Source: Pseudomonadota bacterium
Lineage (GTDB): Bacteria > Pseudomonadota > Gammaproteobacteria > Xanthomonadales > Xanthomonadaceae
Direction of reading: 5' to 3'
Length of the DNA: 64,000 nt
NCBI GenBank assembly: GCA_018241125.1
Contig: JAFEEL010000044.1
Location: 62,001-126,000, forward strand
Of this stretch, positions 14,025 to 31,485 are shown piece by piece. Numbering within the stretch: position 1 is the first letter of the stretch; every line of letters starts with the position of its first letter. A program made the position numbers and the translations under genes. The notes below the pieces were generated by a model that searched no databases, was not told the origin of the DNA, and worked only from the letters and a program-made list of their open reading frames with translations.

Positions 14025-14184
14025 CTAGCAGGTTGTTGAAAAAGGGCTTTTCCGCCCTTTTTCAACGCGCCGAGTCCGGTACATGTCCGTACTCGGCTCC
14101 GCCAAATCAAACACTTGCGTGTTTGATTGGCGTGCGATCCGTCCATGGATCGCATCAGCAGGCTGCTTTTCAACAGCCTGCTAG
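14025..14184. repeat. MITE-like element with terminal inverted repeats and four internal hairpins
   Basis: Outer arms CTAGCAGGTTGTTGAAAA (14025-14042) and TTTTCAACAGCCTGCTAG (14167-14184) are inverted repeats with one mismatch. Inside lie four palindromes: GTTGAAAAAGGGC paired with GCCCTTTTTCAAC (14035-14066), GCCGAGT with ACTCGGC (14069-14097), CCAAATCAAACAC with GTGTTTGATTGG (14102-14130), and TGCGATCC with GGATCGCA (14133-14154). The right end supplies the TAG stop codon of the ppiC gene. No ORF of note is inside. It resembles a non-autonomous mobile unit or a highly structured RNA. Confidence 0.8.
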
Positions 14185-15032
14185 TCGTCCAGTCCGCGCA
14201 CTTGATAGATCTGGTGGAGCTGCCGCAGGTAGTGGTGGATGGCGTGCTGGCGCGATTGCGCTTGCAGGTAGCAGCCGATGCGCTGTGCGCAGTCGGCGTA
14301 ATCCAGCGCCTGTCCGCGCTCGATCGCATCCACGCACACCACGTGGTGGCCCCAGCGCGATTCGATGGTCAGGCCAGCCAGACCGGGCTTGAGCATGAAC
14401 AACTGACGCTCGAACTCCGGCGTGGTCTGCCCGTGCTCGATCCAGTCCAGATCGCCGCCTTCGCTGGCCGAGGGGCAGGCCGAGTGGCGCGCGGCGAACT
14501 CGGCAAAACGCGCCGGGTCGGCGCGCAGCTGTTCGATGAGTTGCTCGCCCAGTTCGCGCCCGCGCAGGCGGGCGCTGGAGTCGGCCGGGGCGGCGGCCAG
14601 CAGGATGTGGCGCACGCGCACGCGGTCGGGGCTGCGGAAGCGCTCGCGGTTGGCGTCGAAATACCGCCGACACGCGGCCTCGTCGGGGGCAGGGATCGGC
14701 GTCTGCTCGTCGAGCAGGACGCGGATGGCGGCTTCCTCGGGGGTCTCGGCACCCTCGGTTTCGATCTCCTCCATCCCGAGGCGCTCGCACTCGCGGCGCA
14801 GCAGCTCGCGGATCACCAGCGTGCGCGCGGCCTGCTGGCGCGATGCGTGCGGATCCTCGGCGCGGTGGAACTGCATTTCGCGCGCGATGTCCGCCTCGCT
14901 GATCGGGGTTTGTTCGACGAACACCCACGCCGGCGCCTGCCCGGGCAGGCCGGTGCCCGGATCGGGCGTGTGGGCGCGGGCGGCGTCGGACAGGGCGCCG
15001 GCGTCCATCACGATGGGAATGATTTTTTCCAT
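14181..15032 (-). CDS. PpiC-type (parvulin) peptidyl-prolyl isomerase of the nar operon
   Basis: 283 residues, no signal peptide, so cytoplasmic. An N-terminal helical region (EADIAREMQFHRAEDPHASR) resembles NifM/SurA-type chaperone segments. The parvulin domain spans about 135-240: VRVRHILLAAAP, RFAEFAARHSACPSASEGGD, LDWIEHGQTTPEFERQLF and ESRWGHHVVCVD. A PpiC-type gene directly after narI is a known arrangement (for example in Pseudomonas aeruginosa), where it is thought to assist nitrate reductase folding. It starts 3 bp before the narI stop region and ends at the mobile-like repeat at 14025-14184. Confidence 0.9.
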   Translation of the reverse strand: MEKIIPIVMDAGALSDAARAHTPDPGTGLPGQAPAWVFVEQTPISEADIAREMQFHRAEDPHASRQQAARTLVIRELLRRECERLGMEEIETEGAETPEEAAIRVLLDEQTPIPAPDEAACRRYFDANRERFRSPDRVRVRHILLAAAPADSSARLRGRELGEQLIEQLRADPARFAEFAARHSACPSASEGGDLDWIEHGQTTPEFERQLFMLKPGLAGLTIESRWGHHVVCVDAIERGQALDYADCAQRIGCYLQAQSRQHAIHHYLRQLHQIYQVRGLDD

Positions 15033-15035
15033 GGC

Positions 15036-15737
15036 TCAGCGCTTGGCGTAGTCCACCGCCGGCTGGCGCCGACGCACGACCTGATAGGGCCGGCGCAGGT
15101 AGCTCAGCGGGATCGACCAGATGTGCACCAGCCGGGTGAACGGCGTGATCAGGATCAAGGTCAGACCCAGGGTGATGTGCGCCTTGAAGATCCAGTGGGT
15201 GCCGGCCACCAGCGCGGCCGCACCGGGACGGAAGGTGACCACGTGCTGCGCCCAGCCCGACAGCGCCAGCATCTCGCTGCCGTCGAGGTGCTGGGCGGAG
15301 ACGAAGATCGACGACAGCCCCAGCAGCAGTTGCGCGTACAGCAAGATCAGCACCGCCAGGTCACGGCCGCCGCCGGTGGCGCGGATGCGCACGTCGAGCA
15401 GGCGGCGCAGCAGCAGGATGGTCATGCCCAGCAGGCACACCAGCCCGAACACGCCGCCGACGATCATCGCCAGCAGTTGCTTGTTTTCCACGCTGATCAC
15501 GTACTCGTACAACCAGTGCGGGGTGAGCAGGCCGACCAAATGCCCGCCGAGGATGGCCAGGATGCCGATATGGAAGGCGTTGCTGCCCAGGCGCATCCCG
15601 CGTGGCGAGAGCAACTGGCTCGACCCGCTGCGCCAGGTGTAGGCGCCCCAGTCGAAGCGCGCCCAGCAACCGATGGCGAAGATGCCCAGTGCGATGTAGG
15701 GGTAGATCTGGAAGAGGAAGAAATCCACGAAGTCCAT
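15036..15737 (-). CDS. narI: Respiratory nitrate reductase gamma subunit (cytochrome b)
   Basis: 233 residues with five hydrophobic helices. Haem b ligands are visible as the histidines of NAFHIGILAILGGHLVGL (helix 2) and GTHWIFKAHITLGL (helix 5). NarI oxidises quinol at the periplasmic face and passes electrons through two b haems to NarH. The C-terminal cytoplasmic tail (IPLSYLRRPYQVVRRR) contacts NarGH. Its start is 17 bp downstream of the narJ stop, and ppiC follows with a 3-bp gap. The product should use ubiquinol, which fits the ubiUV and ubiT genes nearby. Confidence 0.97.
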   Translation of the reverse strand: MDFVDFFLFQIYPYIALGIFAIGCWARFDWGAYTWRSGSSQLLSPRGMRLGSNAFHIGILAILGGHLVGLLTPHWLYEYVISVENKQLLAMIVGGVFGLVCLLGMTILLLRRLLDVRIRATGGGRDLAVLILLYAQLLLGLSSIFVSAQHLDGSEMLALSGWAQHVVTFRPGAAALVAGTHWIFKAHITLGLTLILITPFTRLVHIWSIPLSYLRRPYQVVRRRQPAVDYAKR

Positions 15738-15754
15738 GGGTCACCTGTGCCTGC

Positions 15755-16483
15755 TCATGCCCTCCCCGGATGGGGGCGGTGGGTGGGTGTGCAATCGTCC
15801 TGTGGCGCCTGGGTGCCGAAACGCACCGCTTCTTCTTCCCAGACCTTGTCCATCGCCTCGGCGGTGTCGTCGCGGCCTTCGGCGCGCGCCTTTTCGCGCA
15901 ATGCGGCGTCGCCGCTGCCGCCGTGCGCACCGACCAGCAAGTCGAGCACGTCGGCGTAGGGGCTGTGCCGCTCGGCCGCGCGGGCGGCCAGCAGGCTGGT
16001 GATGTGGCCGACGTGGCCCAGCCAGTCCGCCGCCTCGGCGTGTGGCCGCGAGGACAGGAACTCCAGCACCAGCGGCAGGTAGTCGGGCAGCTCGCGGCTG
16101 GCCAACTCGAAGCCGTGGCGGCGATAGGTTTCCACCAAATCCACCATCGCCTGGCCGCGGTCGCGCGATTCGCCGTGGATGTGTTCGAACAGCAACAGGC
16201 TCATCGCCCGTCCGCGGTCGAACAGCTCCAGCCAGCGTTCCTGCGCGGCCATCGGTTCGAGCGCCAGCAGCTCTTCGGTGAATGCGCGCAGGCGCTGATT
16301 GGCCGCCGTCGGCAGGGCCTGGTCGTGGCAGGCCGCGAGCAGTTCGGCGTGGTGCTCCCACAGCGCCTCACGCGGGTAGTCGAGCAGGGCGCTGAGCAGC
16401 TTGAGGGTGTGCGGCGAGGGGATCGCCGCGCCCGGCGGGCGCAGGCGCGCGGTGACGGCCTGGGTGGCTTCGCGCAGACTCAT
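15755..16483 (-). CDS. narJ: Nitrate reductase assembly chaperone
   Basis: 242 residues, all helical. The TorD/NarJ family pattern is visible: TLKLLSALLDYPREALWEH, MSLLLFEHIHGESRDRGQAM, VDLVETYRRHGFELASRELP and DYLPLVLEFLS. NarJ is a cytoplasmic, system-specific chaperone that holds apo-NarG until the molybdenum cofactor and FeS cluster are inserted. The ATG at 16483 overlaps the narH stop by 4 bp (ATGA), showing translational coupling. The acidic tail with PQDDCTPTHRPHPGRA is variable. Confidence 0.96.
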   Translation of the reverse strand: MSLREATQAVTARLRPPGAAIPSPHTLKLLSALLDYPREALWEHHAELLAACHDQALPTAANQRLRAFTEELLALEPMAAQERWLELFDRGRAMSLLLFEHIHGESRDRGQAMVDLVETYRRHGFELASRELPDYLPLVLEFLSSRPHAEAADWLGHVGHITSLLAARAAERHSPYADVLDLLVGAHGGSGDAALREKARAEGRDDTAEAMDKVWEEEAVRFGTQAPQDDCTPTHRPHPGRA

Positions 16484-18027
16484 GCCGGCTCCCGGTCGGG
16501 TTCTTGCCGCGCCGGATGCACCTGGTACGTGGTGGTGGCACGCCCGCCGAACAGCGCCTCGGCTTCCGAGCCCGGCGAGCAGCCGTTGCCGAAAGTGAAA
16601 CCGCAGCCGCCGCGTTCGCCGAAGGCGTCGTTGGCGTACTCGCGGTGCGCGGTGGGAATGACGAAGCGGTCTTCGTAGTTGGCGATGGCCAGATACCGAT
16701 ACATCTCTTCGGCCTGCTTCACGCTCAGGCCCACTTGCGTGAGCGCGCTGGTGTCCTCGATGCCGTCGACGTTGCGCGCCCGTCGCCACGCGCGCATGGC
16801 CAAGATGCGTTCGAGCGCGCGAATGACCGGCTCTTCGTCGCCGGCGGTGAGCAGGTTGGCCAGATAGCGCAGCGGGATGCGCAGCGAGCGCACGTCGGGC
16901 AGTTCGCCGTGGCGATCGACCTTGCCGGCGTCGGCGGCCGATTGCACCGGCGACAGCGGCGGCACGTACCACACCATCGGCAGGGTGCGGTATTCGGGGT
17001 GCAGCGGCAGCGCCAGCTTCCAGTCCACCGCCAGCTTGTAGACCGGCGAGGCCTGGGCGGCGTCGATCCAGTTGTCGCGGATGCCTTCGGCGCGCGCCGC
17101 CGCGATCACCTTGGGATCGAACGGGTCGAGGAAGATGTCCAGATGCGCCTGATACAGGTCTTTCTCGGCCGGCGCGTTGGCCGCTTCCTGGATGCGGTCG
17201 GCGTCGTAGAGCATCACGCCGAGGTAGCGGATGCGCCCCACGCAGGTTTCCGAGCACACCGTCGGCTCGCCCATCTCGATGCGCGGGTAGCAGAAGATGC
17301 ACTTCTCGGATTTGCCGGACTTCCAGTTGTAGTAGATCTTCTTGTACGGGCAGCCCGATACGCACATGCGCCAGCCGCGGCACTTGTCCTGATCGATCAG
17401 GACGATGCCGTCTTCCTCGCGCTTGTAGATGGCCCCGGACGGGCACGAGGCCACGCACGCCGGGTTCAGGCAGTGCTCGCACAAGCGCGGTAGGTACATC
17501 ATGAAGGTCTTTTCGAAGGCGCCGTAGATGTCCTTCTGCACGCCTTCGAAGTTGACGTCCTTGCTGCGCTTGGCGAACTCGGTGCCGAGGATTTCTTCCC
17601 AGTTCGGGCCCCAGTGGATCTTCTGCATGCGCTGGCCGGTGATCAGCGAGCGCGGGCGGGCGGTCGGCTGGTGCTCGCCGGACGGCGCCTCGTGCAAGTT
17701 CTGGTAGTCGAAGTCGAACGGCTCGTAGTAGTCGTCGATCTGCGGCAGGTCGGGGTTGGCGAAGATCTTGGCGAGCATGCGCAGGCGGCCGCCGGCCTTG
17801 AGCTGCAACTTGCCCGATGCCGTGCGCACCCAGCCGCCGTTCCACTTGCGCTGGTTTTCCCATTCCTTCGGGTAGCCCACGCCGGGTTTGGTCTCGACGT
17901 TGTTGAACCAGGCGTACTCGACGCCCTCGCGGGAGGTCCAGACGTTCTTGCAGGTGATCGAGCAGGTGTGGCAGCCGATGCACTTGTCGAGGTTGAGCAC
18001 CATGGCGATCTGGGCGCGAACTTTCAT
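16480..18027 (-). CDS. narH: Respiratory nitrate reductase beta subunit (FeS)
   Basis: 515 residues from the ATG at 18027. Four ferredoxin-like cysteine groups are visible: CIGCHTCSITC starting at C16, CEHCLNPACVASCP, CRGWRMCVSGCP (tryptophan in place of a cysteine, the mark of the 3Fe-4S cluster) and CIFCYPRIEMGEPTVCSETC. The protein wires electrons from NarI to NarG at the cytoplasmic face of the membrane. Upstream codons remain open through a heptamer array but encode only the repeats, so I reject them as coding. The 202-bp gap to narG is unusual, since narG and narH normally abut. Confidence 0.97.
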   Translation of the reverse strand: MKVRAQIAMVLNLDKCIGCHTCSITCKNVWTSREGVEYAWFNNVETKPGVGYPKEWENQRKWNGGWVRTASGKLQLKAGGRLRMLAKIFANPDLPQIDDYYEPFDFDYQNLHEAPSGEHQPTARPRSLITGQRMQKIHWGPNWEEILGTEFAKRSKDVNFEGVQKDIYGAFEKTFMMYLPRLCEHCLNPACVASCPSGAIYKREEDGIVLIDQDKCRGWRMCVSGCPYKKIYYNWKSGKSEKCIFCYPRIEMGEPTVCSETCVGRIRYLGVMLYDADRIQEAANAPAEKDLYQAHLDIFLDPFDPKVIAAARAEGIRDNWIDAAQASPVYKLAVDWKLALPLHPEYRTLPMVWYVPPLSPVQSAADAGKVDRHGELPDVRSLRIPLRYLANLLTAGDEEPVIRALERILAMRAWRRARNVDGIEDTSALTQVGLSVKQAEEMYRYLAIANYEDRFVIPTAHREYANDAFGERGGCGFTFGNGCSPGSEAEALFGGRATTTYQVHPARQEPDREPA

Positions 18028-18058
18028 GACGGCTCCGGTGGAACGAAATGGGTGAAGC

Positions 18059-18228
18059 GGGACTCGGGACTCGGGACTCGGGAAGCGGGAAGCGGGAAGC
18101 GGGACTCGGGAAGCGGGACTCGGGAAGCGTGGCTCGGGACTCGGGACTCGGGACTCGGGAAGCGAAAAACGGAAAACGGAAAACGGAAAACGGAAAACGG
18201 AAAACGGAAAACGGAAAACGGAAAACGT
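18059..18228. repeat. Two abutting heptamer arrays between narG and narH
   Basis: Block one (18059 to about 18161) mixes GGGACTC and GGGAAGC heptamers in strings of two or three. Block two (18166-18228) has eight perfect AAAACGG units followed by AAAACGT. Together they fill the 202-bp narG-narH spacer. In the nar mRNA, which runs on the minus strand, the segment would read as repeated CCGTTTT then GAGTCCC/GCTTCCC. No stem with a T-run is formed, so it is not a classic terminator. Confidence 0.92.
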
Positions 18229-18229
18229 C

Positions 18230-21200
18230 TCAGGTCGTTCCCGCCTCGACGTCGGCCGGCACCGGCTCACCATCGTGCCACTCGACCTTGCGCATCTTGC
18301 GCACGATCACCAGCTCGTCGCGGTTGGATCCGATGGTGCCGTAGTAGTTGAAGCCATAGGCGAACTGCGCGTAGCTGCCGATCATGTGCGTGGGCTTGAC
18401 CACCACCCGGGTGACCGAGTTGTGGATGCCGCCGCGGGTGCCGGTGATCTCCGATCCGGGCGTGTTGATGATGCGTTCTTGCGCGTGGTACATCATGGCG
18501 ATGCCCGGCATCATGCGCTGGCTCACCACGGCGCGGGCGGCGATCGCGCCGTTGACGTTGAACAGGTCGATCCAGTCGTTGTCCTCGATGCCCGCTTCGC
18601 GCGCATCGGTCTCGCTGATCCACACGATCGGCCCGCCGCGCGAGAGCGTCTGCATGATCAGGTTGTCGGAGTAGGTGCTGTGGATGCCCCACTTCTGGTG
18701 CGGGGTGATCCAGTTGAGCACGATCTCCTTGTGCCCGTTGGGCTTGGCGCCGAGCATCGGGGCGATGGTCTTGGTGTCCACCGGCGGGCGGTAGGCCATG
18801 AAGCCCTCGCCGAAGGCGCGCATCCATTCGTGATCCATGTAGAACTGCTGGCGACCGGTCAGCGTGCGCCACGGGATCAGCTCGTGCACGTTGGTGTAGC
18901 CGGCGTTGTAGCTGACGTGGTCATCCTCCAGCCCCGACCAGATCGGCGAGGAGATGATCTTGCGCGGCTGCGCCTGGATGTCGCGGAAGCGGATCGCCTC
19001 GTGTTCCTTGCCCACCGCCAGATGGGTGTGGTCGCGCCCGGTGAAGGTGCCCAGCGACTCCCACGCCTTCACCGCGACGTGGCCGTTGGTCTCCGGCGCC
19101 AGATGCAGCACCACCTCGCAGGCGTCGATGGCCGAAACGATCTGCGGCCGGCCCTTGCTGATGCCTTCTTCGACCACTTCATGGTTGAGCTTGCCGAGGA
19201 AGGCGACCTCGTCGCGCGTATCCCACTGCATGCCCTTGCCGCCGTTGCCCAGTTTGTCCAGCAGTGGCCCCAGCGAGGTGAACTTCTTGTACAAGTTGGG
19301 GTAGTCGCGCTCGACCACCGCCATGGCCGGCATGGTCTTGCCGGGGATGGGCTCGCACTCGCCTTTTTTCCAGTCGCGCACGTCCAGCGGCATCGACAGT
19401 TCGTTCGGGGTGTCGTGCAGGGTGGGCGAGAGCACCAGATCCTTGACCACGCCGAGCACGCCCGGCGCCATCGCGCTGACCGTGCGGGCGATGCCCTTGA
19501 AGATGTCCCAGTCGCTGCGCGCCTCCCACGCCGGATCCACCGCCTTGGACAGCGGGTGGATGAACGGGTGCATGTCGGAGGTGTTGAGGTCGTTCTTCTC
19601 GTACCAGGTCGCGGTCGGCAGCACCACGTCCGAATACAGCGCGGTGGTGCACATGCGGAAGTCGAGGGTGACCAGCAGGTCGAGCTTGCCTTCGGGCGTT
19701 GGATCGCGCCATTTGATCTCTGCGGGCTTGGGCGCGCCGCGCTCGCCCAGGTCCTTGCCCTGCAAGCCGTGGCGGGTGCCGAGCATGTGCCGCAGCATGT
19801 ACTCGTGGCCCTTGCCCGAGGAACCCAGCAGGTTGGAGCGCCACACGAACATGTTGCGCGGGAAGTTCTGCGGCGCGTCGGGGTCGGCGAAGGCGAAATC
19901 CAGCGTGCCTTGCTTGAACTGCGCCAGCGCGTAGTCCACCGGCGCCATCCCGGCCGCTTCGGCCTCGCGTACCACCTTGAGCGGGTTGCGGTCGAGCTGC
20001 GGGGCGCACGGCAGCCAGCCCATGCGCACCGCGCGCAGGTTGAAGTCGGCCATCGAACCGCCGTATTTCTTGGGATCGGCCAGCGGCGACAGCAGTTCAT
20101 CCACGCCGACCTTTTCGTAGCGCCACTGATCGGTGTTGAAGTAGTAGTACGAGGTGCCGTTCATCTGCCGCGGTGGGCGGTTCCAGTCCAGCGCGAAGGT
20201 CAGCGGCAGCCAGCCGGTCTGCGGGCGCAGTTTTTCCTGACCCACGTAATGCGCCCAGCCGCCGCCGGTCTGGCCCACGCAGCCGCACATCACCAGCATG
20301 TTGATCAGCCCGCGATAGTTCATGTCGCAGTGGTACCAGTGGTTCATGCCGGCACCGACGATGATCATCGAGCGGCCTCGGGTCTTGTCGGCGTTGCGCG
20401 CGAACTCGCGGGCGATGCGGATCACCTGATCGCGCGGCACGCCGGTGATCTTTTCCTGCCACGCCGGGGTGCCGGGCACGTTGTCGTCGTAGCTGGCCGC
20501 GACGTTGGCGCCGCCGAAGCCGCGATCCACGCCGTACTGCGCCATCAGCAGGTCGTACACGGTGGCGACCGCCCACTGCTTGCCGTCGGCCAGTTGCAGG
20601 TGACGCACCGGCACGTTGCGTTCGAGGATGGAATCGAACTTCGCGGCGGTCCAGTGCTCGTGCTCGACGCCGCCGAAGTACGGGAAGCTCACCGCCTCGA
20701 CGCCGTCATTGGCGTCTTTCAGGCTCAGGCGCAGCTTGGTGTCGCGGCCGGCGCTGTCTTTTTCCTCGATGTTCCACTTGCCCTTTTCGCCCCAGCGGAA
20801 GCCCACCGAGCCGTTGGGCACGCTCATCTGCCCGGTGTTTTCATCGAACGCCAGCGTCTTCCATTCCGGATTGTTGCTCTCGCCCAGCCCGCCCAGGTCG
20901 GACGCGCGCAGGTAGCGCTCGGCGACCAGTCGCCCGTCGGCGCGCTTTTCCAGGCGCACCAGCAAGGGCATGTCCGAATACTGGCGGCAGTAATCGACGA
21001 AATACGCCGACGGGTGGTCGACGTGGAACTCCTTGAGGATCACGTGCCCGAAGGCGAATGCCAGCGCCGCATCGGTGCCCTGCTTGGGGTGCAGCCAGTT
21101 GTCGCACAGCTTGGCGACTTCGGAGTAATCCGGGGTGATGGCCACCGTCTTGGTGCCGTTGTAACGCGCCTCGGTGAAGAAGTGCGCGTCGGGCGTGCGC

Positions 21201-21976
21201 GTCTGCGGCACGTTGCTGCCCCAGGCGATGATGTAGCGGCTGTTGTACCAGTCGGCCGACTCGGGCACGTCGGTCTGCTCGCCCCACACCTGCGGCGAGG
21301 ACGGCGGCAGGTCGCAGTACCAGTCGTAGAAGCTCAGGCACACCCCGCCCAGCAGCGAGAGGTAGCGCGCGCCGGAGGCGTAGGAGATCATCGACATCGC
21401 CGGGATCGGCGAGAAGCCGATCACCCGATCCGGCCCATAGGTCTTGACCGTGTACAAGTTGGCGGCGGCGACGATTTCGTTGGCTTCGTCCCAGTGCACG
21501 CGCACGAAGCCGCCCATGCCGCGCTTGGTCTTGTATTGCTTCGTCTTGGCCGGATCCTCGACGATGCTGCCCCAGGCATCCACCGGGGACTTGTCCTTGC
21601 GCGCCTCGCGCCACAGGCGCAGCAACTGGCTGCGCACCAGCGGATATTTCAGGCGGTTGGCGCTGTACAGGTACCACGAATAGCTGGCCCCGCGCGGACA
21701 GCCGCGCGGCTCGTGGTTGGGTAGGTCCGGGCGGGTGCGCGGGTAGTCGGTCTGCTGGGTTTCCCACGTCACCAGCCCGTTCTTGACGTATACCTTCCAG
21801 CTGCACGAGCCGGTGCAGTTCACCCCGTGCGTGGAGCGCACGATCTTGTCGTACTGCCAGCGCCGCCGGTAGCTGTCTTCCCACGAGCGATCCTGGGTGC
21901 GGGTGACGCCGTGACCGTCGGAAAAGTCCTCGTCGGCGGTCTTGAAGAAGTTGAGGCGGTCGAGGAAATAGCTCAT
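18230..21976 (-). CDS. narG: Respiratory nitrate reductase alpha subunit (molybdopterin)
   Basis: 1248 residues, full length. The FS0 cluster ligands are H50, C54, C58 and C93 (STHGVNCTGSCSW and RGCPRGAS). The FYDWYCDLPP segment near 216-225, which carries the aspartate molybdenum ligand in the E. coli enzyme, is intact, as is GRSMIIVGAGMNHWYHCDMN. It reduces nitrate to nitrite at a Mo-bisMGD centre on the cytoplasmic side. Similarity to E. coli NarG is high over the whole length. A probable FNR-type box (22057-22070) and a -10 hexamer lie 50-95 bp upstream. It is the first gene of narGHJI-ppiC. Confidence 0.98.
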   Translation of the reverse strand: MSYFLDRLNFFKTADEDFSDGHGVTRTQDRSWEDSYRRRWQYDKIVRSTHGVNCTGSCSWKVYVKNGLVTWETQQTDYPRTRPDLPNHEPRGCPRGASYSWYLYSANRLKYPLVRSQLLRLWREARKDKSPVDAWGSIVEDPAKTKQYKTKRGMGGFVRVHWDEANEIVAAANLYTVKTYGPDRVIGFSPIPAMSMISYASGARYLSLLGGVCLSFYDWYCDLPPSSPQVWGEQTDVPESADWYNSRYIIAWGSNVPQTRTPDAHFFTEARYNGTKTVAITPDYSEVAKLCDNWLHPKQGTDAALAFAFGHVILKEFHVDHPSAYFVDYCRQYSDMPLLVRLEKRADGRLVAERYLRASDLGGLGESNNPEWKTLAFDENTGQMSVPNGSVGFRWGEKGKWNIEEKDSAGRDTKLRLSLKDANDGVEAVSFPYFGGVEHEHWTAAKFDSILERNVPVRHLQLADGKQWAVATVYDLLMAQYGVDRGFGGANVAASYDDNVPGTPAWQEKITGVPRDQVIRIAREFARNADKTRGRSMIIVGAGMNHWYHCDMNYRGLINMLVMCGCVGQTGGGWAHYVGQEKLRPQTGWLPLTFALDWNRPPRQMNGTSYYYFNTDQWRYEKVGVDELLSPLADPKKYGGSMADFNLRAVRMGWLPCAPQLDRNPLKVVREAEAAGMAPVDYALAQFKQGTLDFAFADPDAPQNFPRNMFVWRSNLLGSSGKGHEYMLRHMLGTRHGLQGKDLGERGAPKPAEIKWRDPTPEGKLDLLVTLDFRMCTTALYSDVVLPTATWYEKNDLNTSDMHPFIHPLSKAVDPAWEARSDWDIFKGIARTVSAMAPGVLGVVKDLVLSPTLHDTPNELSMPLDVRDWKKGECEPIPGKTMPAMAVVERDYPNLYKKFTSLGPLLDKLGNGGKGMQWDTRDEVAFLGKLNHEVVEEGISKGRPQIVSAIDACEVVLHLAPETNGHVAVKAWESLGTFTGRDHTHLAVGKEHEAIRFRDIQAQPRKIISSPIWSGLEDDHVSYNAGYTNVHELIPWRTLTGRQQFYMDHEWMRAFGEGFMAYRPPVDTKTIAPMLGAKPNGHKEIVLNWITPHQKWGIHSTYSDNLIMQTLSRGGPIVWISETDAREAGIEDNDWIDLFNVNGAIAARAVVSQRMMPGIAMMYHAQERIINTPGSEITGTRGGIHNSVTRVVVKPTHMIGSYAQFAYGFNYYGTIGSNRDELVIVRKMRKVEWHDGEPVPADVEAGTT

Positions 21977-22028
21977 CGGGGGTCGCCCTTGGCAAGTGGA
22001 AGTGAAGTGACGGCGGCGCTCGGGCGGA

Positions 22029-22070
22029 ACCTTATCCGGGCCGGCGTGCGCCGATGCTGATCTGCGTCAA
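22029..22070 (-). promoter_or_regulatory. Probable FNR/Anr-activated promoter of narG
   Basis: On the plus strand CTGAT-CTGC-GTCAA (22057-22070) keeps one good half site of the FNR consensus TTGAT-N4-ATCAA and one weaker half. On the minus strand TAAGGT (22034 to 22029) is centred 32 bp away, the spacing of a class II FNR promoter. It would give a leader of roughly 45 nt to narG. The box overlaps the 3' end of the preceding gene. Match quality is moderate. Confidence 0.5.
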
Positions 22071-22468
22071 CTGCGCGTGGCACGCGAATCGGCATCGAGG
22101 TTGACGGCGTCGACAGCATCGGCAATGGGTCTGGGGCCCGCTCGGCGCCGCGCGCCGCGCAAGCGGACACTATCGCGCACGTCCACCGCGAAGTCCAAGC
22201 GCGGGCCGTCGACGATGTCGAATGACAACGATTCGCGACGGGGCAGGGTGGCGACGTAGGCATCCAATCGCGCCCGATCCAGACGCACCGACCACACGCC
22301 AGCTCTGGCGGTGAAAGCAAAGCCCTCGCCCAACCGCACCACCGCGTCGAGCAAGGTACAGCCGGCGATGACGGGCGCCAGACGCAAGGTTGCGCCGGCC
22401 TCCAGCTTGGCCAGTTCGGCCTCGTCGATGCGCACGCGCAGGTGATCGGGGGCGATTTGCAGTTTCAT
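22067..22468 (-). CDS. Conserved hypothetical protein between moaA and narG
   Basis: 133 residues. MKLQIAPDHLRVRIDEAELA, KLEAGATLRLAPVI and GWSVRLDRARL-type beta-strand patterns recall the small DUF7009-like family of unknown function. No signal peptide, cysteine motif or membrane segment. The C-terminus is arginine- and alanine-rich and looks disordered. It sits downstream of moaA across a repeat-filled gap, and its stop overlaps the likely narG FNR box. A role in nitrate respiration is suggested only by position. It lacks the terminal GG of MoaD. Confidence 0.6.
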   Translation of the reverse strand: MKLQIAPDHLRVRIDEAELAKLEAGATLRLAPVIAGCTLLDAVVRLGEGFAFTARAGVWSVRLDRARLDAYVATLPRRESLSFDIVDGPRLDFAVDVRDSVRLRGARRRAGPRPIADAVDAVNLDADSRATRS

Positions 22469-22483
22469 GGGCAGGGAGGGAGC

Positions 22484-22546
22484 GGGGGCGAGGGGCGAGG
22501 GGCGAGGGAGCAGGGGCGAGGGGCCAGGGGCGAGGGGCGAGGGGCG
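22484..22546. repeat. AGGGGCG heptamer array between moaA and the unknown gene
   Basis: Nine heptamers, mostly AGGGGCG with variants GGGGGCG, AGGGAGC and AGGGGCC, occupy the start of the 138-bp gap. It is the fourth heptamer array in this window, all placed directly next to a gene end. Confidence 0.85.
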
Positions 22547-22561
22547 GGGGCTGCTGCAACC

Positions 22562-22585
22562 CCTTCCCCCGCTGGCGGGGGAAGG
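22562..22585. repeat. Perfect 11-bp stem-loop downstream of moaA
   Basis: CCTTCCCCCGC and GCGGGGGAAGG pair across a TG loop, 21 bp after the moaA stop on the minus strand. It could slow or end moaA transcription, but neither strand has a clear T-run (AACCCC on one side, TTGGG on the other). The sequence resembles the G/C hairpins that flank the DUF559 gene. Confidence 0.55.
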
Positions 22586-22606
22586 TTGGGATGGGGGTTT
22601 TGGGCG

Positions 22607-23590
22607 TTATCCGCCGATCGAGGCCAGGTGCGGGGTCAGGCCGGTCAACCCCGCGTGCAGGCCGTGCCCGGCCGCCTTCAGGCCGAGTTGGCTGAGCAGG
22701 TGGGCCTGCAGCACGTCCGGGTCGGAGTCGGCCTGCAGCAGCGGCCGCAGCGGGATACCGAGGTTGCCGAACAGGCACAGGCGCAAGTCGCCGCGGGCGG
22801 TCACCCGCAGGCGGTTGCAGCCGGCGCAGAAGTCCTTGGAATACGGGGCGATGATGCCGATGCGTCCGCGGTAATCGGGGTGCGCGTACTCGCGCGCCGG
22901 GCCGGCGTTGGGGCCGCGCTCGCGCAGGCGCCAGCCTTGCGCCGACAAGGCCTCTTCCAGCCCCTGCGCGCGCAGGTGGTGGCGTTGGAAATACTCGCCA
23001 TTGGTGCCGGTACGCATCAGTTCGATGAAGCGCACCGCCAGCGGCCGCTCGCGCAGGTAATCCAGCCACTGCGGCAGTTGTTCGTCGTTCAACCCGCGCA
23101 GCAACACCGCATTGAGCTTGAGGGTGGGGAAACCATCGGCCAGCGCGTCGTCGATTCCCGCCAGGATGTCGTGCAGGCGGTCGTGCCCGGTGATGGCCGC
23201 GAAACGCTGCCGATTCAGCGCGTCCACGCTGACGTTCAGCGCGTTCAGGCCGGCCTGCCTCCAGCTTGCCCAGCGCTTGCGCAGCAGGCAGCCGTTGGTG
23301 GTCATGGCCAGCGTTTGGATACCCGCAATGGCCGCAGCGGCGGCGATGATTTCCGGCAAATCGCGGCGCAACGTCGGCTCGCCGCCGGTCAGGCGCAGCT
23401 TGCGCAGGCCCACGCCGGAAAAAGCGCGCAGCAGGCGCTCGATCTCGTCCACGCGCAGCGGCGCCGGCGCCCCGGGCGCGGCCACATAGCCATTGGGCAG
23501 GCAATAGCTGCAACTGAAGTTGCACGCCTCGATCACCGACAGGCGCAGATACGGGAAGCGACGGCCGAAGCGGTCGACCAATTCGGTCAT
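22607..23590 (-). CDS. moaA: GTP 3',8-cyclase, molybdenum cofactor biosynthesis
   Basis: 327 residues. Radical SAM cluster cysteines C23, C27 and C30 lie in IEACNFSCSYCLPNG. The second 4Fe-4S cluster motif is CAGCNRLRVTARGDLRLCLFG-like near residues 245-265, and the C-terminal IGG is the GG tail needed for activity. With MoaC it converts GTP to cyclic pyranopterin monophosphate, the first step to the cofactor NarG needs. Transcription probably starts from the FNR-type promoter at 23614-23655, shared in a divergent region with ubiU. Other moa genes are not in the window. Confidence 0.96.
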   Translation of the reverse strand: MTELVDRFGRRFPYLRLSVIEACNFSCSYCLPNGYVAAPGAPAPLRVDEIERLLRAFSGVGLRKLRLTGGEPTLRRDLPEIIAAAAAIAGIQTLAMTTNGCLLRKRWASWRQAGLNALNVSVDALNRQRFAAITGHDRLHDILAGIDDALADGFPTLKLNAVLLRGLNDEQLPQWLDYLRERPLAVRFIELMRTGTNGEYFQRHHLRAQGLEEALSAQGWRLRERGPNAGPAREYAHPDYRGRIGIIAPYSKDFCAGCNRLRVTARGDLRLCLFGNLGIPLRPLLQADSDPDVLQAHLLSQLGLKAAGHGLHAGLTGLTPHLASIGG

Positions 23591-23694: not shown

Positions 23695-23708
23695 GTGATC
23701 CAGATCAA
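23695..23708 (+). promoter_or_regulatory. FNR/Anr-type box for ubiU-ubiV
   Basis: GTGAT-CCAG-ATCAA differs from TTGAT-N4-ATCAA at the first base only. A weak -10 (GACCAT, 23731-23736) is centred 32 bp downstream, giving a leader of about 20 nt to ubiU at 23764. Together with the box at 23642 each divergent gene would own one site. Confidence 0.6.
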
Positions 23709-23763: not shown

Positions 23764-24762
23764 ATGCATCTGGTTTGTCCGGCTGGCAATCTGCCGGCGT
23801 TGATCGCTGCGGTCGACCACGGCGCCGATGCGGTGTATGTGGGGTTTCGCGACCAGACCAACGCCCGCGCCTTTCCTGGACTCAACTTCGGCGACGACGA
23901 CCTGCGCCGCGGCGTGCACTACGCGCATGCGCGCGGTCGCAAGGTCTATCTGGCGCTCAACACTTATCCGGAGTCCGTGCGTCTACCGGAGTGGGAAGCG
24001 GCGGTGGATCGCGCTGCCGCACTGCGCATCGATGCGATCATCGCCGCCGACATGGCGGTGCTCGACTACGCCGCGCGCACCCACCCGCAGATGCCCCGGC
24101 ACTTGTCGGTGCAAGGTTCGGCCACCACCCAGGCGGCGCTGCGCTATTACGTCGAGCGCTTCGGCATCGCCCGCGCGGTGCTGCCGCGGGTGCTGGCGAT
24201 CGGGCAGGTCGAGCGCCTGTGCGAGAACGCACCGGTGCCGCTGGAAGTGTTCGCGTTCGGCAGCCTGTGCATCATGGTGGAAGGCCGCTGCCAGTTGTCC
24301 AGCTATGTCACCGGCGCCTCGCCCAACCGGCACGGCGTGTGCTCGCCGGCGAAGTTCGTGCGCTGGGAGGAAGGCGCGGACGGCCAGCGCACGGTGCGCC
24401 TGAACGGGGTGCTGATGGATCGCTACGCGCCCGGCGAGCCGGCCGGTTATCCGACCGTGTGCAAGGGCCGCTTCGATGTCGCTGGCGAGGTCTTCCATGC
24501 ACTGGAAGAACCGACCAGCCTCAATACTCTGGAACTGCTGCCGCGGCTGGCGCGCGCCGGCGTGGCCGCGCTCAAGATCGAAGGCCGCCAGCGCGGCGTG
24601 GCCTATGTGTCCTCGGTGACGCGGGTGTGGCGGCAGGCCATCGATGCGCTCGAACGCCAACCCGAGGGCTGGGGCGTGCGCGCCGACTGGCAAGCGACGC
24701 TGGGCGCGCATGCCGAAGGGCACCAGACCACGCTGGGCCCCTACCACCGCAGTTGGCACTGA
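23764..24762 (+). CDS. ubiU: O2-independent ubiquinone hydroxylation protein UbiU (U32 peptidase family)
   Basis: 332 residues from the ATG at 23764, matching the family length; longer in-frame starts would cover the FNR box. The four 4Fe-4S ligands known from E. coli are placed almost identically: C169 and C176 (GSLCIMVEGRCQLS), C193 (RHGVCSPAKF) and C233 (PTVCKGRFDV). The N-terminus MHLVCPAGNLPALIAAVDHG is typical. UbiU works as a heterodimer with UbiV to hydroxylate ubiquinone precursors anaerobically, using prephenate as oxygen donor in E. coli. UbiV follows after 12 bp. This supports nitrate respiration on ubiquinol. Confidence 0.95.
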   Translation: MHLVCPAGNLPALIAAVDHGADAVYVGFRDQTNARAFPGLNFGDDDLRRGVHYAHARGRKVYLALNTYPESVRLPEWEAAVDRAAALRIDAIIAADMAVLDYAARTHPQMPRHLSVQGSATTQAALRYYVERFGIARAVLPRVLAIGQVERLCENAPVPLEVFAFGSLCIMVEGRCQLSSYVTGASPNRHGVCSPAKFVRWEEGADGQRTVRLNGVLMDRYAPGEPAGYPTVCKGRFDVAGEVFHALEEPTSLNTLELLPRLARAGVAALKIEGRQRGVAYVSSVTRVWRQAIDALERQPEGWGVRADWQATLGAHAEGHQTTLGPYHRSWH

Positions 24763-24774
24763 GCGGAACTTCCG

Positions 24775-25650
24775 ATGCGACTGAGCCTGGGTTCCTTGCA
24801 ATACTTCTGGCCGCGCCAGCAGGTGCTGGAGTTCTATGCGCAGGCGCTGGACTGGCCGGTGGACATCGTCTATCTGGGCGAGACGGTGTGCTCCAAGCGT
24901 CGCGAGCTGCGCACCCGCGACTGGATCGAACTGGCCGGGCAGATCGCCGATGGCGGCAAGCAGGTCGTGCTGTCCACCCTGGCCTTGCTGGAGGCCGAAT
25001 CGGAGCTGGGCGCGCTGCAGCGGCTGGTTGAAAACGGCCGCTTTCTGGTCGAGGCCAACGACATGTCGGCGGTGCAACTGTGCCGCGAGCGCGGCTTGCC
25101 GTTCGTGTGCGGGCCGAGCGTGAACGTGTACAACGCCCGCGATTTGCAACTGCTGCGCGAAGATGGGCTGTGCCGGCTGGTGCTCGGAGTCGAGCAGGGC
25201 CGCCGCCTGCTCGACGAACTGCGCCAGTGCACCGCCGCCGGCGGACAGCGCATGCCGGAACTGGAAGTGATCGCCTGGGGCCGCCTTCCGCTGGCCTATT
25301 CGGCGCGCTGCTTCACCGCCCGCGCCCACGACGTGCCCAAGGATCAATGCGGCTTTCGCTGCATCGAGCATGCTCAAGGGATGCCGCTGGACACGCGCGA
25401 GGGTCAGCCGTTGCTGCGCATCAACGGCATCCAGATCCTGAGCCATGCCGTCACCGACATGGCCCCGGAGCTGCCGAGCCTGCAAGCGGCCGGGGTGGAT
25501 ATCTTGCGCCTGTACCCGCAACCGGACGGCATGCAGGCCGTGGTGGCGCGCTTCCACGCCGCGCTGAGCGCCGCCGAGCCGCCGCCGCGGGTGGGTGCAC
25601 GCAACGGCTATTGGTTCGACGAAGCGGGGATGGAGCCGGTGGTTGCCTGA
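24775..25650 (+). CDS. ubiV: O2-independent ubiquinone hydroxylation protein UbiV
   Basis: 291 residues. The cluster cysteines C39 (GETVCSKRRE), C179, C192 and C196 (SARCFTARAHDVPKDQCGFRC region) keep the spacing of the E. coli protein. LSLGSLQYFWPRQQVLEFYA is the usual N-terminus. It partners UbiU, 12 bp upstream, in the same short operon. The third member of the system, UbiT, is encoded at 30018-30935 as part of a fusion. The gene ends convergently with fabB, 47 bp away. Confidence 0.95.
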   Translation: MRLSLGSLQYFWPRQQVLEFYAQALDWPVDIVYLGETVCSKRRELRTRDWIELAGQIADGGKQVVLSTLALLEAESELGALQRLVENGRFLVEANDMSAVQLCRERGLPFVCGPSVNVYNARDLQLLREDGLCRLVLGVEQGRRLLDELRQCTAAGGQRMPELEVIAWGRLPLAYSARCFTARAHDVPKDQCGFRCIEHAQGMPLDTREGQPLLRINGIQILSHAVTDMAPELPSLQAAGVDILRLYPQPDGMQAVVARFHAALSAAEPPPRVGARNGYWFDEAGMEPVVA

Positions 25651-28965: not shown

Positions 28966-30021
28966 TCACGCCGCTTCGCGCCGGCCCACCGCCAGCATGC
29001 GCTGCAAGGCGCGGCGGGCGCGAGCGGCGACTTCCGGCGCCACCTCCACCGCGAACTGCCGGTGCAGCAGGGCGGCATGGATGTTGGGCAGGGTGATCTT
29101 CCTCATGTGCGGGCACAGGTTGCACGGCTTGATGAACTGCACCTGCGGGAACTGCTCGCGCAGGTTGTCGGCCATCGAGCACTCGGTGATCATCGCCACC
29201 CGCTGCGGCTGTTCGCGTGCCAGCCACTTGCCCATCGCGCTGGTGGAACCGACGAAATCGGCCTCGGCCAGCACTTCGGGCGGGCACTCGGGGTGCGCCA
29301 CGATCTTCGCGTCGAAGCGTTCGCGGGTGTGCCGGGCTTGCTGCGCGGTGAACTTCTCGTGCACCTCGCACTGGCCGTGCCACAGGATCAACTTCACGTC
29401 GGTCTGGGTGGCCACCCATGAGCCGAGGAAGCGATCGGGCAGGAAGATCACCGCGTCGGCGGCAAACTCTGCGGCGACCGCCTCGACCACCTGCACCGCG
29501 TTGGCCGAGGTGCAGCAGGCGTCCGATTCGGCCTTCACCGCCGCGCTGGTGTTGACGTAGCTGACCACCGGCACGCCCGGATGGGCCGCGCGCAGCGCCA
29601 GCACGTCGGCGGCGGTGATCGAGGACGCCAGCGAGCAGCCGGCTTGCGGGTCGGGGATGAGCACGGTCTTGTGCGGGGCGAGGATCTTCGCGCTTTCGGC
29701 CATGAAGTGGACGCCGCACAGCACGATCAGATCCGACTCGCAGGTGGCCGCCACCTGCGCCAGCGCCAGCGAATCGCCGGTGACATCGGCCACGCCGTGG
29801 AAGATTTCCGGGGTCTGGTAGCTGTGCGCCAGGATGGTCGCGCCGCGCTGCTTCTTGAGCTGCACGATGGCGTCGATCCACGGCAACTGCATCTGCCATT
29901 CCATGCACGGCAGCGTTTGCGCCAGCTTCTGGCCCAGATCGGCGTATTCGCGCAACAGGTCGTCGCGCCAGCGCGGCTGGGCGAGATCGGCGGCGATCGG
30001 TGCGGGGTGGTTGGGGTTCAT
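28966..30021 (-). CDS. nadA: Quinolinate synthase
   Basis: 351 residues. Conserved cysteine-bearing segments of the 4Fe-4S enzyme are visible: LCGVHFMAES (C102), HGQCEVHEKF and IKPCNLCPHMRK, together with ATILAHSYQTPEI, PDPQAGCSLA and GSTSAMGKWL. It condenses iminoaspartate with dihydroxyacetone phosphate to quinolinate for NAD synthesis. The ATG at 30021 overlaps the stop of the chorismate mutase-UbiT gene by 4 bp (ATGA), so it is translated from the same message. The oxygen-sensitive cluster fits an anaerobically induced operon. Confidence 0.95.
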   Translation of the reverse strand: MNPNHPAPIAADLAQPRWRDDLLREYADLGQKLAQTLPCMEWQMQLPWIDAIVQLKKQRGATILAHSYQTPEIFHGVADVTGDSLALAQVAATCESDLIVLCGVHFMAESAKILAPHKTVLIPDPQAGCSLASSITAADVLALRAAHPGVPVVSYVNTSAAVKAESDACCTSANAVQVVEAVAAEFAADAVIFLPDRFLGSWVATQTDVKLILWHGQCEVHEKFTAQQARHTRERFDAKIVAHPECPPEVLAEADFVGSTSAMGKWLAREQPQRVAMITECSMADNLREQFPQVQFIKPCNLCPHMRKITLPNIHAALLHRQFAVEVAPEVAARARRALQRMLAVGRREAA

Positions 30022-30935
30022 CGGGCGCTCGCGGACGGGCCGCCGCGGTGGGCCGCGCGGGCGTCGGCGGCCAGCCCGGCGGCGCGGTGCAGGACGATGC
30101 GGGCGCCCAGTGGCACGTCCTGCCACGGCAACTGGTCGAGCAGGTTGCGCGCGGTCAGGCCTAGATCGACATCACCGGTCAGCTGCAAACGGCGCTGGAA
30201 AAACAAAGTGTCGGCGTCCTCGCGGCGGCTGGCCAGCAGCAGCAGATCGACCGCGCTGCCGCACACGACGGCTTCGGCCGACGCGCCGTCGACCTCGACG
30301 CGCAACATGCGGTCGCGCACGCACACCACGAAAGCCAGGCCCAGATCACTGACTGCGATGCCGACGCGCCGGCCTTCGATGGGATCGAACAAGCCGCTGG
30401 CCAGCGGTTCACGCAGGGCGCGCCGTGCCAGGGCCGCGAACGAATGCGCGCGCGCAGCCGCCGGGACGGTCGCCAGCAGCGGGCGCCAGCGCCACGGCGG
30501 CGGCAACAAACGCAACCAGAATTGCGAGTGCAGGTCGGGGATGGGCCGGTCGTCGTACCGTGCTGCGTCACCGCCGTCGCCAGCGGGCGCATCGCCCTGT
30601 ACCCCCTGCAAGTCGCAGGCATCGGCAATCAGCGCGTCCAGCAGCCGGCCGCTGCTGGCTTCGGGGACGCCCAGCCGCGCACCCAGGCGCTGCGCGCGGG
30701 CGCGCACCGCGCCCTCGCGATCCGGATCGCGCGCCGGCAGCCCGGCCGCGGCTTTGCGCCGCGCGGCCACGCCGACCAGGCGGCGACGCCCGGCGAGCAG
30801 CGCCACCGCGGCATCGTCGATGCCGTCGATCAGCCGGCGTACCAGCGACAGCGCCAAGTCGTGCGCGGCCGGCGCCGGTGGCGCCGAGACGGGCACGAGC
30901 GCGCTGCCAGCGCTGGCGGGAGCGGCTACCGCCAT
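30018..30935 (-). CDS. Fusion of AroQ-type chorismate mutase and UbiT-like SCP2 domain
   Basis: 305 residues from the ATG at 30935. Residues 27-111 align without gaps, at a constant offset of 22, to the chorismate mutase domain of E. coli PheA as I recall it. R33, R50, K61, D70, R73, E74 and Q110 match its active-site R11, R28, K39, D48, R51, E52 and Q88; its S84 is A106 here. Residues 132-275 are an SCP2 lipid-binding domain of the UbiT/YhbT type, with the hallmark DTLFFQRRLQLTGDVDLGLT and ARNLLDQL. UbiT carries ubiquinone intermediates for UbiUV. The gene is coupled to osmC upstream (TGATG) and nadA downstream (ATGA). The domain pairing is unexpected to me. Confidence 0.88.
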   Translation of the reverse strand: MAVAAPASAGSALVPVSAPPAPAAHDLALSLVRRLIDGIDDAAVALLAGRRRLVGVAARRKAAAGLPARDPDREGAVRARAQRLGARLGVPEASSGRLLDALIADACDLQGVQGDAPAGDGGDAARYDDRPIPDLHSQFWLRLLPPPWRWRPLLATVPAAARAHSFAALARRALREPLASGLFDPIEGRRVGIAVSDLGLAFVVCVRDRMLRVEVDGASAEAVVCGSAVDLLLLASRREDADTLFFQRRLQLTGDVDLGLTARNLLDQLPWQDVPLGARIVLHRAAGLAADARAAHRGGPSASAR

Positions 30936-31372
30936 CACGCGTCGACCTCGACGCTGGCTTGCAGTGTGCCGCTGGCCTTGAGCGAGTTGGAAATCAGGCA
31001 GCGGTGTTCGCTGTCTTGCAACAGGCGCAAGGCGAGATCGCGGTCGCTTGCCGCCGGTACCTGCAACTGCGCGTGCACGGTGTAGGCGGTGAAGCGCAGG
31101 CCCTCGTCGGTGCGCGCCAGCGTGCCTTCGACATGGCACTCCAGCGCCGTCCACGCCAGTGCCTTGGCACGCGCCAGCGCGCGGAAGGTCAGCGCGTAGC
31201 AATCGGCGATCGCCCCGACCAGCAGGGTTTCCGGCGACCAGTAGCCGCCCGGCCCACCGAACTCCGGCGGTGACAGTGACGGCAACGGCGCGGCGTCGGA
31301 GTGCGACAAGACGACCTCGCCCTCCGGGCCGGACGTGGAAACGACCTGATAGTGATGCGGCAGGGGATGCAT
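30935..31372 (-). CDS. OsmC/Ohr-family protein
   Basis: 145 residues from the ATG at 31372 (a TTG at 31411 is possible but unlikely). The pattern GGYWSPETLLVGAIADCYAL contains the first conserved cysteine (ADCYALTF), and EHRCLISNSLKASG the second. OsmC/Ohr proteins reduce organic hydroperoxides through this cysteine pair. It is first in the operon osmC-ubiT fusion-nadA-nadB and overlaps the next start by one base. An FNR-type box lies about 100 bp upstream. A peroxidase here may protect the oxygen-labile enzymes during shifts in aeration (inference). Confidence 0.9.
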   Translation of the reverse strand: MHPLPHHYQVVSTSGPEGEVVLSHSDAAPLPSLSPPEFGGPGGYWSPETLLVGAIADCYALTFRALARAKALAWTALECHVEGTLARTDEGLRFTAYTVHAQLQVPAASDRDLALRLLQDSEHRCLISNSLKASGTLQASVEVDA

Positions 31373-31444
31373 GGCGGCTACGGCTCCGGGCGATGGCAGG
31401 TGGGCGCGCAAGTACCTTTCGCCGGCCCGCTGCGCTGGCCGCAG

Positions 31445-31485
31445 ATGCTAGGCGCTTGCCGCGGGCGCGCCTTGACTTCGATCAA
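31445..31485 (-). promoter_or_regulatory. FNR/Anr-type promoter for osmC-ubiT-nadAB
   Basis: TTGAC-TTCG-ATCAA (31472-31485) is a full match to the FNR/Anr consensus TTGAY-N4-RTCAA. On the minus strand the hexamer TAGCAT (31450 to 31445) is centred 31 bp away; the same hexamer serves moaA. This favours control of the minus-strand operon over the divergent peroxidase gene, whose -10-like TACAGT is misplaced by about 8 bp. Confidence 0.75.

Follow-up and report, generated by a model that had tools for sequence, protein, structure and literature searches.

A chorismate mutase-UbiT fusion in Xanthomonadaceae as a probable prephenate source for oxygen-independent ubiquinone synthesis

Findings

The DNA analysed here, hereafter the window, comprises 64,000 nucleotides (nt) from a Pseudomonadota bacterium of the family Xanthomonadaceae (assembly GCA_018241125.1, contig JAFEEL010000044.1, positions 62,001 to 126,000), and encodes a protein in which an AroQ-type chorismate mutase (CM) is joined to UbiT, an SCP2-domain protein of ubiquinone synthesis. 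We consider it likely that this protein functions, with both its parts, in O2-independent ubiquinone synthesis, the fused CM making prephenate for the hydroxylase UbiUV beside the carrier. Two earlier reports describe the hydroxylation of ubiquinone precursors by UbiUV in the absence of O2, and UbiT as an SCP2 protein acting in this pathway (PMC6747719, PMC10470549). A review names prephenate, in the part concerned, as the oxygen source of anaerobic ubiquinone, adding that the exact transformation of prephenate and direct evidence for the catalysing enzymes are still to be demonstrated (PMC11574389); prephenate is also given as a requirement of the pathway of another U32 protein, TrhP, in a passage of PMC6599085. 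According to our proposal, the N-terminal AroQ domain would convert chorismate to prephenate, the C-terminal UbiT/SCP2 domain would hold hydrophobic ubiquinone intermediates and bring them to UbiU-UbiV, and these would take the hydroxyl oxygen from prephenate. The fusion would place a dedicated prephenate source at the site of hydroxylation, separate from the PheA-like enzyme of the genome, and an FNR-type box ahead of the operon would provide for its expression under low oxygen along with the other pathway genes. What we infer is that the CM is catalytically active, that prephenate is delivered to UbiUV and that the gene is expressed anaerobically; the features of the sequence that point to them are set out below.

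Both halves of the protein are recognised by profile searches. The Pfam family CM_2 matches residues 32-110 (44.8 bits, E 1.5e-11, cut-off 27) and SCP2 (PF02036) residues 172-267 (49 bits, cut-off 21.3), and the NCBIfam equivalog for UbiT, NF047962, covers residues 155-272 with 115.5 bits at a cut-off of 46.9, which bears out the UbiT-like C-terminal part described in a first-pass annotation made from the letters of the window. With 305 residues and an added CM domain, the protein departs from the small single-domain form of UbiT, although judged by its SCP2 part it counts as one. Its scores against the NCBIfam CM equivalogs all stay under the cut-offs (the best by bits are PRK09239, 29.1 versus 120, and TIGR01791, 28.9 versus 66.95), so that the fused CM is a divergent AroQ belonging to no named subfamily, and Pfam found no dehydratase or dehydrogenase part in it.

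When aligned with the CM of Escherichia coli, whose active-site residues and their numbering we take to be R11, R28, K39, D48, R51, E52, S84 and Q88, the window protein has R33, R50, K61, D70, R73, E74, A106 and Q110 at the corresponding positions; seven of the eight residues are kept, with alanine at the position of S84. The offset of 22 residues is constant, and the same register is seen in two alignments to the crystal structure 1ecm, in one of them up to residue 84; the offset, the seven residues and the S84 to A106 replacement had all been noted at first pass and are confirmed by alignment. For a profile of 40 fusions, the match to 1ecm has an E value of 1.5e-12 and that to rabbit SCP2 (1c44) one of 3.1e-4. 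The AlphaFold model of the fusion (predicted local distance difference test, pLDDT, 87.6; predicted template modelling score, pTM, 0.64) has three predicted AroQ helices (residues 24-63, 71-87 and 92-109), a linker and an SCP2 domain, with low confidence at residues 117-121. Searched with Foldseek, the predicted model gives UbiJ-SCP2 (6h6p) as the first hit and matches 1ecm with a root mean square deviation of 1.2 A over 84 columns at 31% identity. The Pfam score, the active-site alignment, the profile match to 1ecm and the predicted CM-like fold rule out that the CM match arose by chance, and the assignment of the N-terminal half to AroQ stands.

Table 1. Features of the window discussed in the text (positions are those of the window)
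Feature	Position	Strand	Basis
CM-UbiT fusion, open reading frame	30018-30935	minus	305 aa, ATG at 30935; Pfam and NCBIfam matches
AroQ CM domain, residues 27-111	30603..30857	minus	CM_2 44.8 bits, alignment, predicted fold
Linker, residues 112-134	30534..30602	minus	neither an in-frame Met nor an FNR-type box (at best 5 mismatches)
UbiT SCP2 lipid-binding domain, residues 155-272	30120..30473	minus	NF047962 115.5 bits; fold match UbiJ-SCP2 6h6p
OsmC-family gene, directly upstream of fusion	30935..31411	minus	Pfam OsmC 55.8 bits; probably same operon
nadA, next gene after fusion	28966..30021	minus	Pfam NadA 357 bits; proposed ATG
FNR-type box TTGATCGAAGTCAA, ahead of osmC	31472..31485	minus	1 mismatch; consensus match only
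ubiU (U32 family)	23764..24762	plus	PF01136 197.7 bits (C38:85983-86750 = window 23983-24750); start by eye
ubiV (U32 family)	24775..25650	plus	PF01136 48.5 bits; open reading frame
FNR-type box GTGATCCAGATCAA, ahead of ubiU	23695..23708	plus	1 mismatch; consensus match

Conservation and distribution of the fusion

The active site was compared across 51 fusions, taken from the genomic regions fetched and from the window. R11, R28, D48, R51 and E52 are invariant in all 51, K39 is present in 50 and Q88 in 47, and the only other invariant column of the CM domain is D18. Such conservation would be expected from selection for chorismate binding and turnover, much of which binding alone could explain. 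Loss of function with residual similarity was considered and is rejected by this invariance for most of the fusions; it may apply to the four in which Q88 is lost (L089, L119, L120 and L146). A tree was built from 39 CM domains, of which 25 came from the 51 fusions, 12 were separate CMs and two PheA. All fused CMs fall together in it (92/83), with PheA and the separate CMs outside, and the separate CMs do not make up a single group; several branches of this tree are long, and its finer placing is unsure.

The CM-UbiT fusion is a clade trait. In a sample of the family of the window, UbiT exceeded the cut-off in 34 of 149 genomes and was fused in 33 of them, genome G104 being the exception; in a sample of the order, it did so in 68 of 250 genomes and was fused in 32, all belonging to four families (f1 16/16, f2 1/1, f3 4/4 and f12 11/12). 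A sample of the class yielded UbiT matches over the cut-off in 88 of 321 genomes, 85 of them outside the family, and no fusion was found in the 62 non-order ubiT regions examined among these. A scan of named genomes, which was queried with the fusion itself and shows where it occurs, not how often, found 289 relatives; the best 80 of these were all fused (80/80), and include representatives of Stenotrophomonas, Xanthomonas, Pseudoxanthomonas, Lysobacter, Thermomonas, Arenimonas, Luteimonas, Dyella, Rhodanobacter, Dokdonella and Frateuria. CM and UbiT lie in one stop-free frame in every fusion counted. Genes for ubiU and/or ubiV are present within the fetched region of 43 of the 51 fusions and absent from the region in the other eight; in one relative (L020/L126), the ATG of the fusion can be seen by eye to overlap the ubiV stop.

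Four long open frames from elsewhere in the class (L058, L061, L062 and L077) were considered as further fusions and rejected: they contain no CM match, and their upstream part resembles, by eye, an untranslated frame. Dyella jiangningensis CP007444 has two CM-UbiT loci (L273 and L274) with equal match values, perhaps a duplication or an assembly repeat. One fusion (L309) comes from a metagenome-assembled genome carrying the alphaproteobacterial name Erythrobacter sp. 34-65-8, a case of either mis-binning or transfer.

Chorismate mutase genes beside ubiT in other families

Outside the order, a separate CM_2 gene lies directly beside ubiT in four of the 62 non-order regions, which belong to four families, with gaps of -5 to 73 bp between the frames. 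The CM gene is divergent from ubiT in G641, G395 and G535 and lies downstream on the same strand in G503, and all four CMs pass the Pfam CM_2 cut-off (59.5-66.8 bits). If a genome of 3 Mb holds about two CM genes, a rough estimate is that chance would place one directly beside ubiT in far fewer than one of the 62 regions. The pair is kept in all seven UbiT-bearing genomes of the G395 family (12 genomes searched) and in all four of the G641 family (four searched; in G687 the two genes are on the same strand), and G503 and G535 are each the sole UbiT-bearing genome of two searched in their own family. The separate AroQ genes found beside ubiT are at L166, L198, L202, L220, L228-L234 and L251-L253; at L192, a frame with weak similarity to CM (E 0.005) lies 3.9 kb away from ubiT and was not counted as a pair.

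An FNR-type box with at most two mismatches occurs beside 11 of 12 CM-ubiT pairs scanned in hand-set ranges (12 of 13 pairs; the thirteenth, L233, is close to L232), and a box with at most one mismatch beside nine. For these nine, no more than one shuffle in 300 equalled the box score; the scores at L166, L232 and L234 were reached by 17, 25 and 47 of 300 and are not convincing. The separate pairs are independent support for a role of the CM in supplying prephenate. By eye, the CM gene of G535 lies ahead of an apparent nitric oxide reductase gene, and in G641 a cytochrome P450-like frame (L166:8769-10007, minus strand) is directly next to ubiT.

A promoter-like element inside the linker

The linker that joins the two domains was scanned for FNR-type boxes with a consensus, not a trained FNR matrix, and the matches assign no particular regulator of the FNR/CRP family. 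In a set of 100 fusions, distinct by UbiT sequence only and still related, so that the box and codon tests overstate independence, the linker coding sequence contains an FNR-type box with at most two mismatches in 51 cases, compared with 2.3% of codon shuffles (examples are L131, L139, L125, L295, L293 and L335; in one of the 51, L273, the match counted lies next to the box that the eye recognises). All 51 boxes are in the same reading frame. A -10-like hexamer, NATGAT, begins 23 nt after the box, with A at its second place in 50 of 51 and T at its sixth in 50 of 51, and an in-frame ATG follows the box by 39 nt in 36 fusions and by 36 nt in 14; a linker Met is present in 50 of the 51 fusions with a box versus 35 of the 49 without. 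The box lies 16 nt from the Q88 codon in 33 of the 51 fusions and 10 to 67 nt from it in the others. Class II FNR promoters have a box followed at about 22 nt by the -10 element, a geometry found in the linkers of these 51 relatives and not in that of the window, the promoter being predicted from sequence.

A linker motif, D-x-[DGNH]-Q-G, is present in 53 of the 100 fusions. Its second Asp is encoded by GAT in 36 of 36 cases, compared with 660 of 1775 elsewhere in these genes, and its Gln by CAA in 36 of 53, compared with 213 of 956. Because of this codon bias, the linker DNA itself seems to be under selection, with the reservation that the sequences are related. Fusions lacking a linker box more often have one upstream of the gene: within 600 bp upstream of the CM, a box with at most one mismatch is found in 16 of 47 fusions without a linker box versus 1 of 51 with one (Fisher p 2e-5), and a box with at most two mismatches in 27 of 47 versus 14 of 51 (p 0.004), two fusions with under 300 bases upstream having been left out. 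FNR-type regulation thus seems to be common while its target differs, being the free carrier in some lineages and the whole fusion in others. Where present, the linker promoter predicts free UbiT as a second product, likely made from a nearly leaderless mRNA with an expected transcription start at or just before the ATG. The linker of the window has neither the box nor a Met, its box being ahead of osmC; a relative of the same genus (L129) is likewise without a linker box and has a linker Met.

The linker promoter would be a new observation and an unusual regulatory twist. A survey of 1566 ubiTUV sets sought FNR sites upstream of annotated starts (PMC11707229), so that sites internal to the linker could be missed by it.

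The operon and its genomic setting

By eye, the osmC stop and the ATG of the fusion overlap as TGATG (30933-30937), and the stop of the fusion and the nadA ATG as ATGA (30018-30021); because of these overlaps the three genes look translationally coupled. The box TTGATCGAAGTCAA precedes the operon, not the fusion gene itself, and TAGCAT at 31450-31445, 21 nt past it, could be the -10 element. An FNR box had been part of the first-pass annotation; it exists, with one mismatch, but sits ahead of osmC, and as the window holds 27 FNR-type matches with at most two mismatches versus 8.9 expected, one box alone is weak evidence.

The two U32 genes, ubiU and ubiV, lie 4-7 kb from the fusion and are the only U32 matches in the genome of the window, which makes UbiUV the sole candidate found if prephenate feeds a U32 enzyme here. 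Ahead of them, at 14181-23590, lie genes that by eye resemble a nitrate reductase cluster (narGHJI) and moaA, which suggests nitrate respiration.

Weighing the proposed role

Several observations weigh against the role proposed here. Linkage to a CM is not required for UbiT, since 58 of the 62 non-order ubiT regions are without a linked CM; within the order, a linked CM was found in none of the 35 UbiT-bearing genomes of families f7, f8, f9 and f11, and in G104 (L122) and G307 (L117), which belong to families otherwise fused, UbiT has no CM in its 20-kb region. Each of these last two genomes has one CM_2 match, in frames of 395 and 413 amino acids that are PheA-like by length. The active site is also not entirely that of the E. 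coli enzyme: the S84 position is occupied by A in 41 fusions, G in six, C in three and S in one, being other than serine in 50 of 51, Q88 is replaced in four (H, A, L and L), and the four separate CMs aligned, which keep R11, R28, K39, R51 and E52, are all without Q88. In the G395 family, the CM helix reads by eye [IL]LRQ[FYH] in place of the Q88 region. In G535 (listed as 100% complete), G686 and G688 the CM beside ubiT is the only CM_2 match found, so that it may serve amino-acid synthesis too. Finally, the linker promoter, where present, would yield UbiT without CM.

In DAHP synthase, the AroQ domain is a regulator. The CM domain of the fusion could similarly sense chorismate or prephenate and adjust UbiT, or only aid UbiT dimerisation, no prephenate being made for UbiUV. 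That AroQ domains are also found joined to DAHP synthase (described in part of PMC5526877) and that Q88 is lost in four of the 51 fusions and in the four separate CMs aligned speak for this explanation, which we nevertheless regard as unlikely: of the eight catalytic positions, five show no variation and K39 almost none, and those five, together with D18, are the only invariant columns. A structural domain would not need all catalytic residues; a ligand-binding sensor is harder to exclude.

A smaller probability attaches to an active CM working mainly for phenylalanine and tyrosine synthesis, its link to ubiT being one of shared anaerobic expression. The genomes with no CM_2 match other than the one beside ubiT fit this explanation, and the genome of the window does not, having a second CM_2 match in a 412-aa frame that is PheA-like by length alone; five further fused genomes searched (G001, G029, G103, G183 and G184) each have another CM_2 match as well, and co-expression leaves the covalent joining of CM to UbiT unexplained.

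Less probable again is a chorismate lyase-like activity of the AroQ-fold domain, which would then make the 4-hydroxybenzoate ring precursor. Xanthomonas-type bacteria use XanB2. The UbiC family (PF04345) has no match in the genome of the window, which would leave room for such an activity, but a relative of the FkbO/Hyg5-type chorismatases is present (G000:C1:11255-11941, L338; 169.8 bits, under the cut-off of 325) and could provide 4-hydroxybenzoate in this genome without a UbiC match; the related XanB2-type enzyme produces 3- and 4-hydroxybenzoate, according to part of PMC3949708, and the E52 position of the CM active site is invariant. It is scarcely credible that the long frame arose by chance from high GC content, with UbiT alone as the real product: the promoter-like linker element and the in-frame Met that follows it before UbiT in 50 of 51 cases would suit it, but the active-site residues upstream are invariant, the frame is free of stops in every fusion counted, and the linker of the window contains no ATG (TTG or GTG starts are possible) and the long frame starts overlapping osmC.

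The first-pass annotation had spoken of a metabolic channel. The part of this that concerns a local supply of prephenate is supported by the conservation of the active site, the distinct group of fused CMs and the CM-ubiT pairs with boxes; direct transfer is not, and local co-supply is the safer wording. Strict channelling would be unnecessary, as anaerobic co-supply independent of PheA would suffice.

As a broader and more tentative proposition, which we rate at somewhat below even, CM may have been recruited several times, as the Xanthomonadales-type fusion and as divergent or tandem gene pairs elsewhere, to be the committed prephenate source of UbiUV in a complex organised by UbiT. About half of the fusions may also make free UbiT from the linker promoter, which would set the ratio of the prephenate-making form to the plain carrier; the gene of the window would make the fused form only.

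Relation to known systems

The annotation also left room for the fusion being already known and unrelated to prephenate supply. A full-text search within a limited collection of papers found none with both 'chorismate mutase' and 'UbiT', and earlier mention of the fusion cannot be excluded. The words 'fusion' and 'fused' do not occur in the main text of the ubiTUV survey cited above (PMC11707229), nor in the text of PMC13386864 as far as it was available. The CM-UbiT fusion offers a compact system in which local prephenate supply to U32 hydroxylases can be tested, and it points to UbiT as an organising hub. A CM gene next to ubiT or to a U32 gene might serve as a genomic marker for other prephenate-dependent hydroxylations.

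The fusion shares with UbiT (YhbT) of the O2-independent pathway the SCP2 domain, a UbiT equivalog score over the cut-off, the nearby ubiU-ubiV genes and an FNR-type box upstream of the operon. Known UbiT proteins are about 180-200 amino acids long and mostly SCP2, according to part of PMC11707229, that of E. coli having 174 (given in part of PMC6747719), whereas the fusion adds an N-terminal CM. In Zymomonas mobilis, a UbiT-UbiU gene fusion mentioned in the same part of PMC6747719 likewise joins UbiT to a part of the same pathway; there the partner is a hydroxylase subunit, and here it is an enzyme making the proposed oxygen donor. The CM domain of PheA and TyrA (AroQ, 1ecm) has the same predicted fold, the same register and seven of the eight active-site residues, and the fused CM differs from it in the missing dehydratase or dehydrogenase part (by Pfam), in the change of S84 to Ala and in its separate group in the tree. 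AroQ is joined to a functional partner also in AroQ-DAHP synthase (PMC5526877) and in exported fusions of CM with cyclohexadienyl dehydratase (PMC10520331); as far as the relevant parts of these sources go, the partners belong there to the shikimate and aromatic amino-acid route, whereas the partner here, UbiT, carries lipids for the synthesis of quinones.

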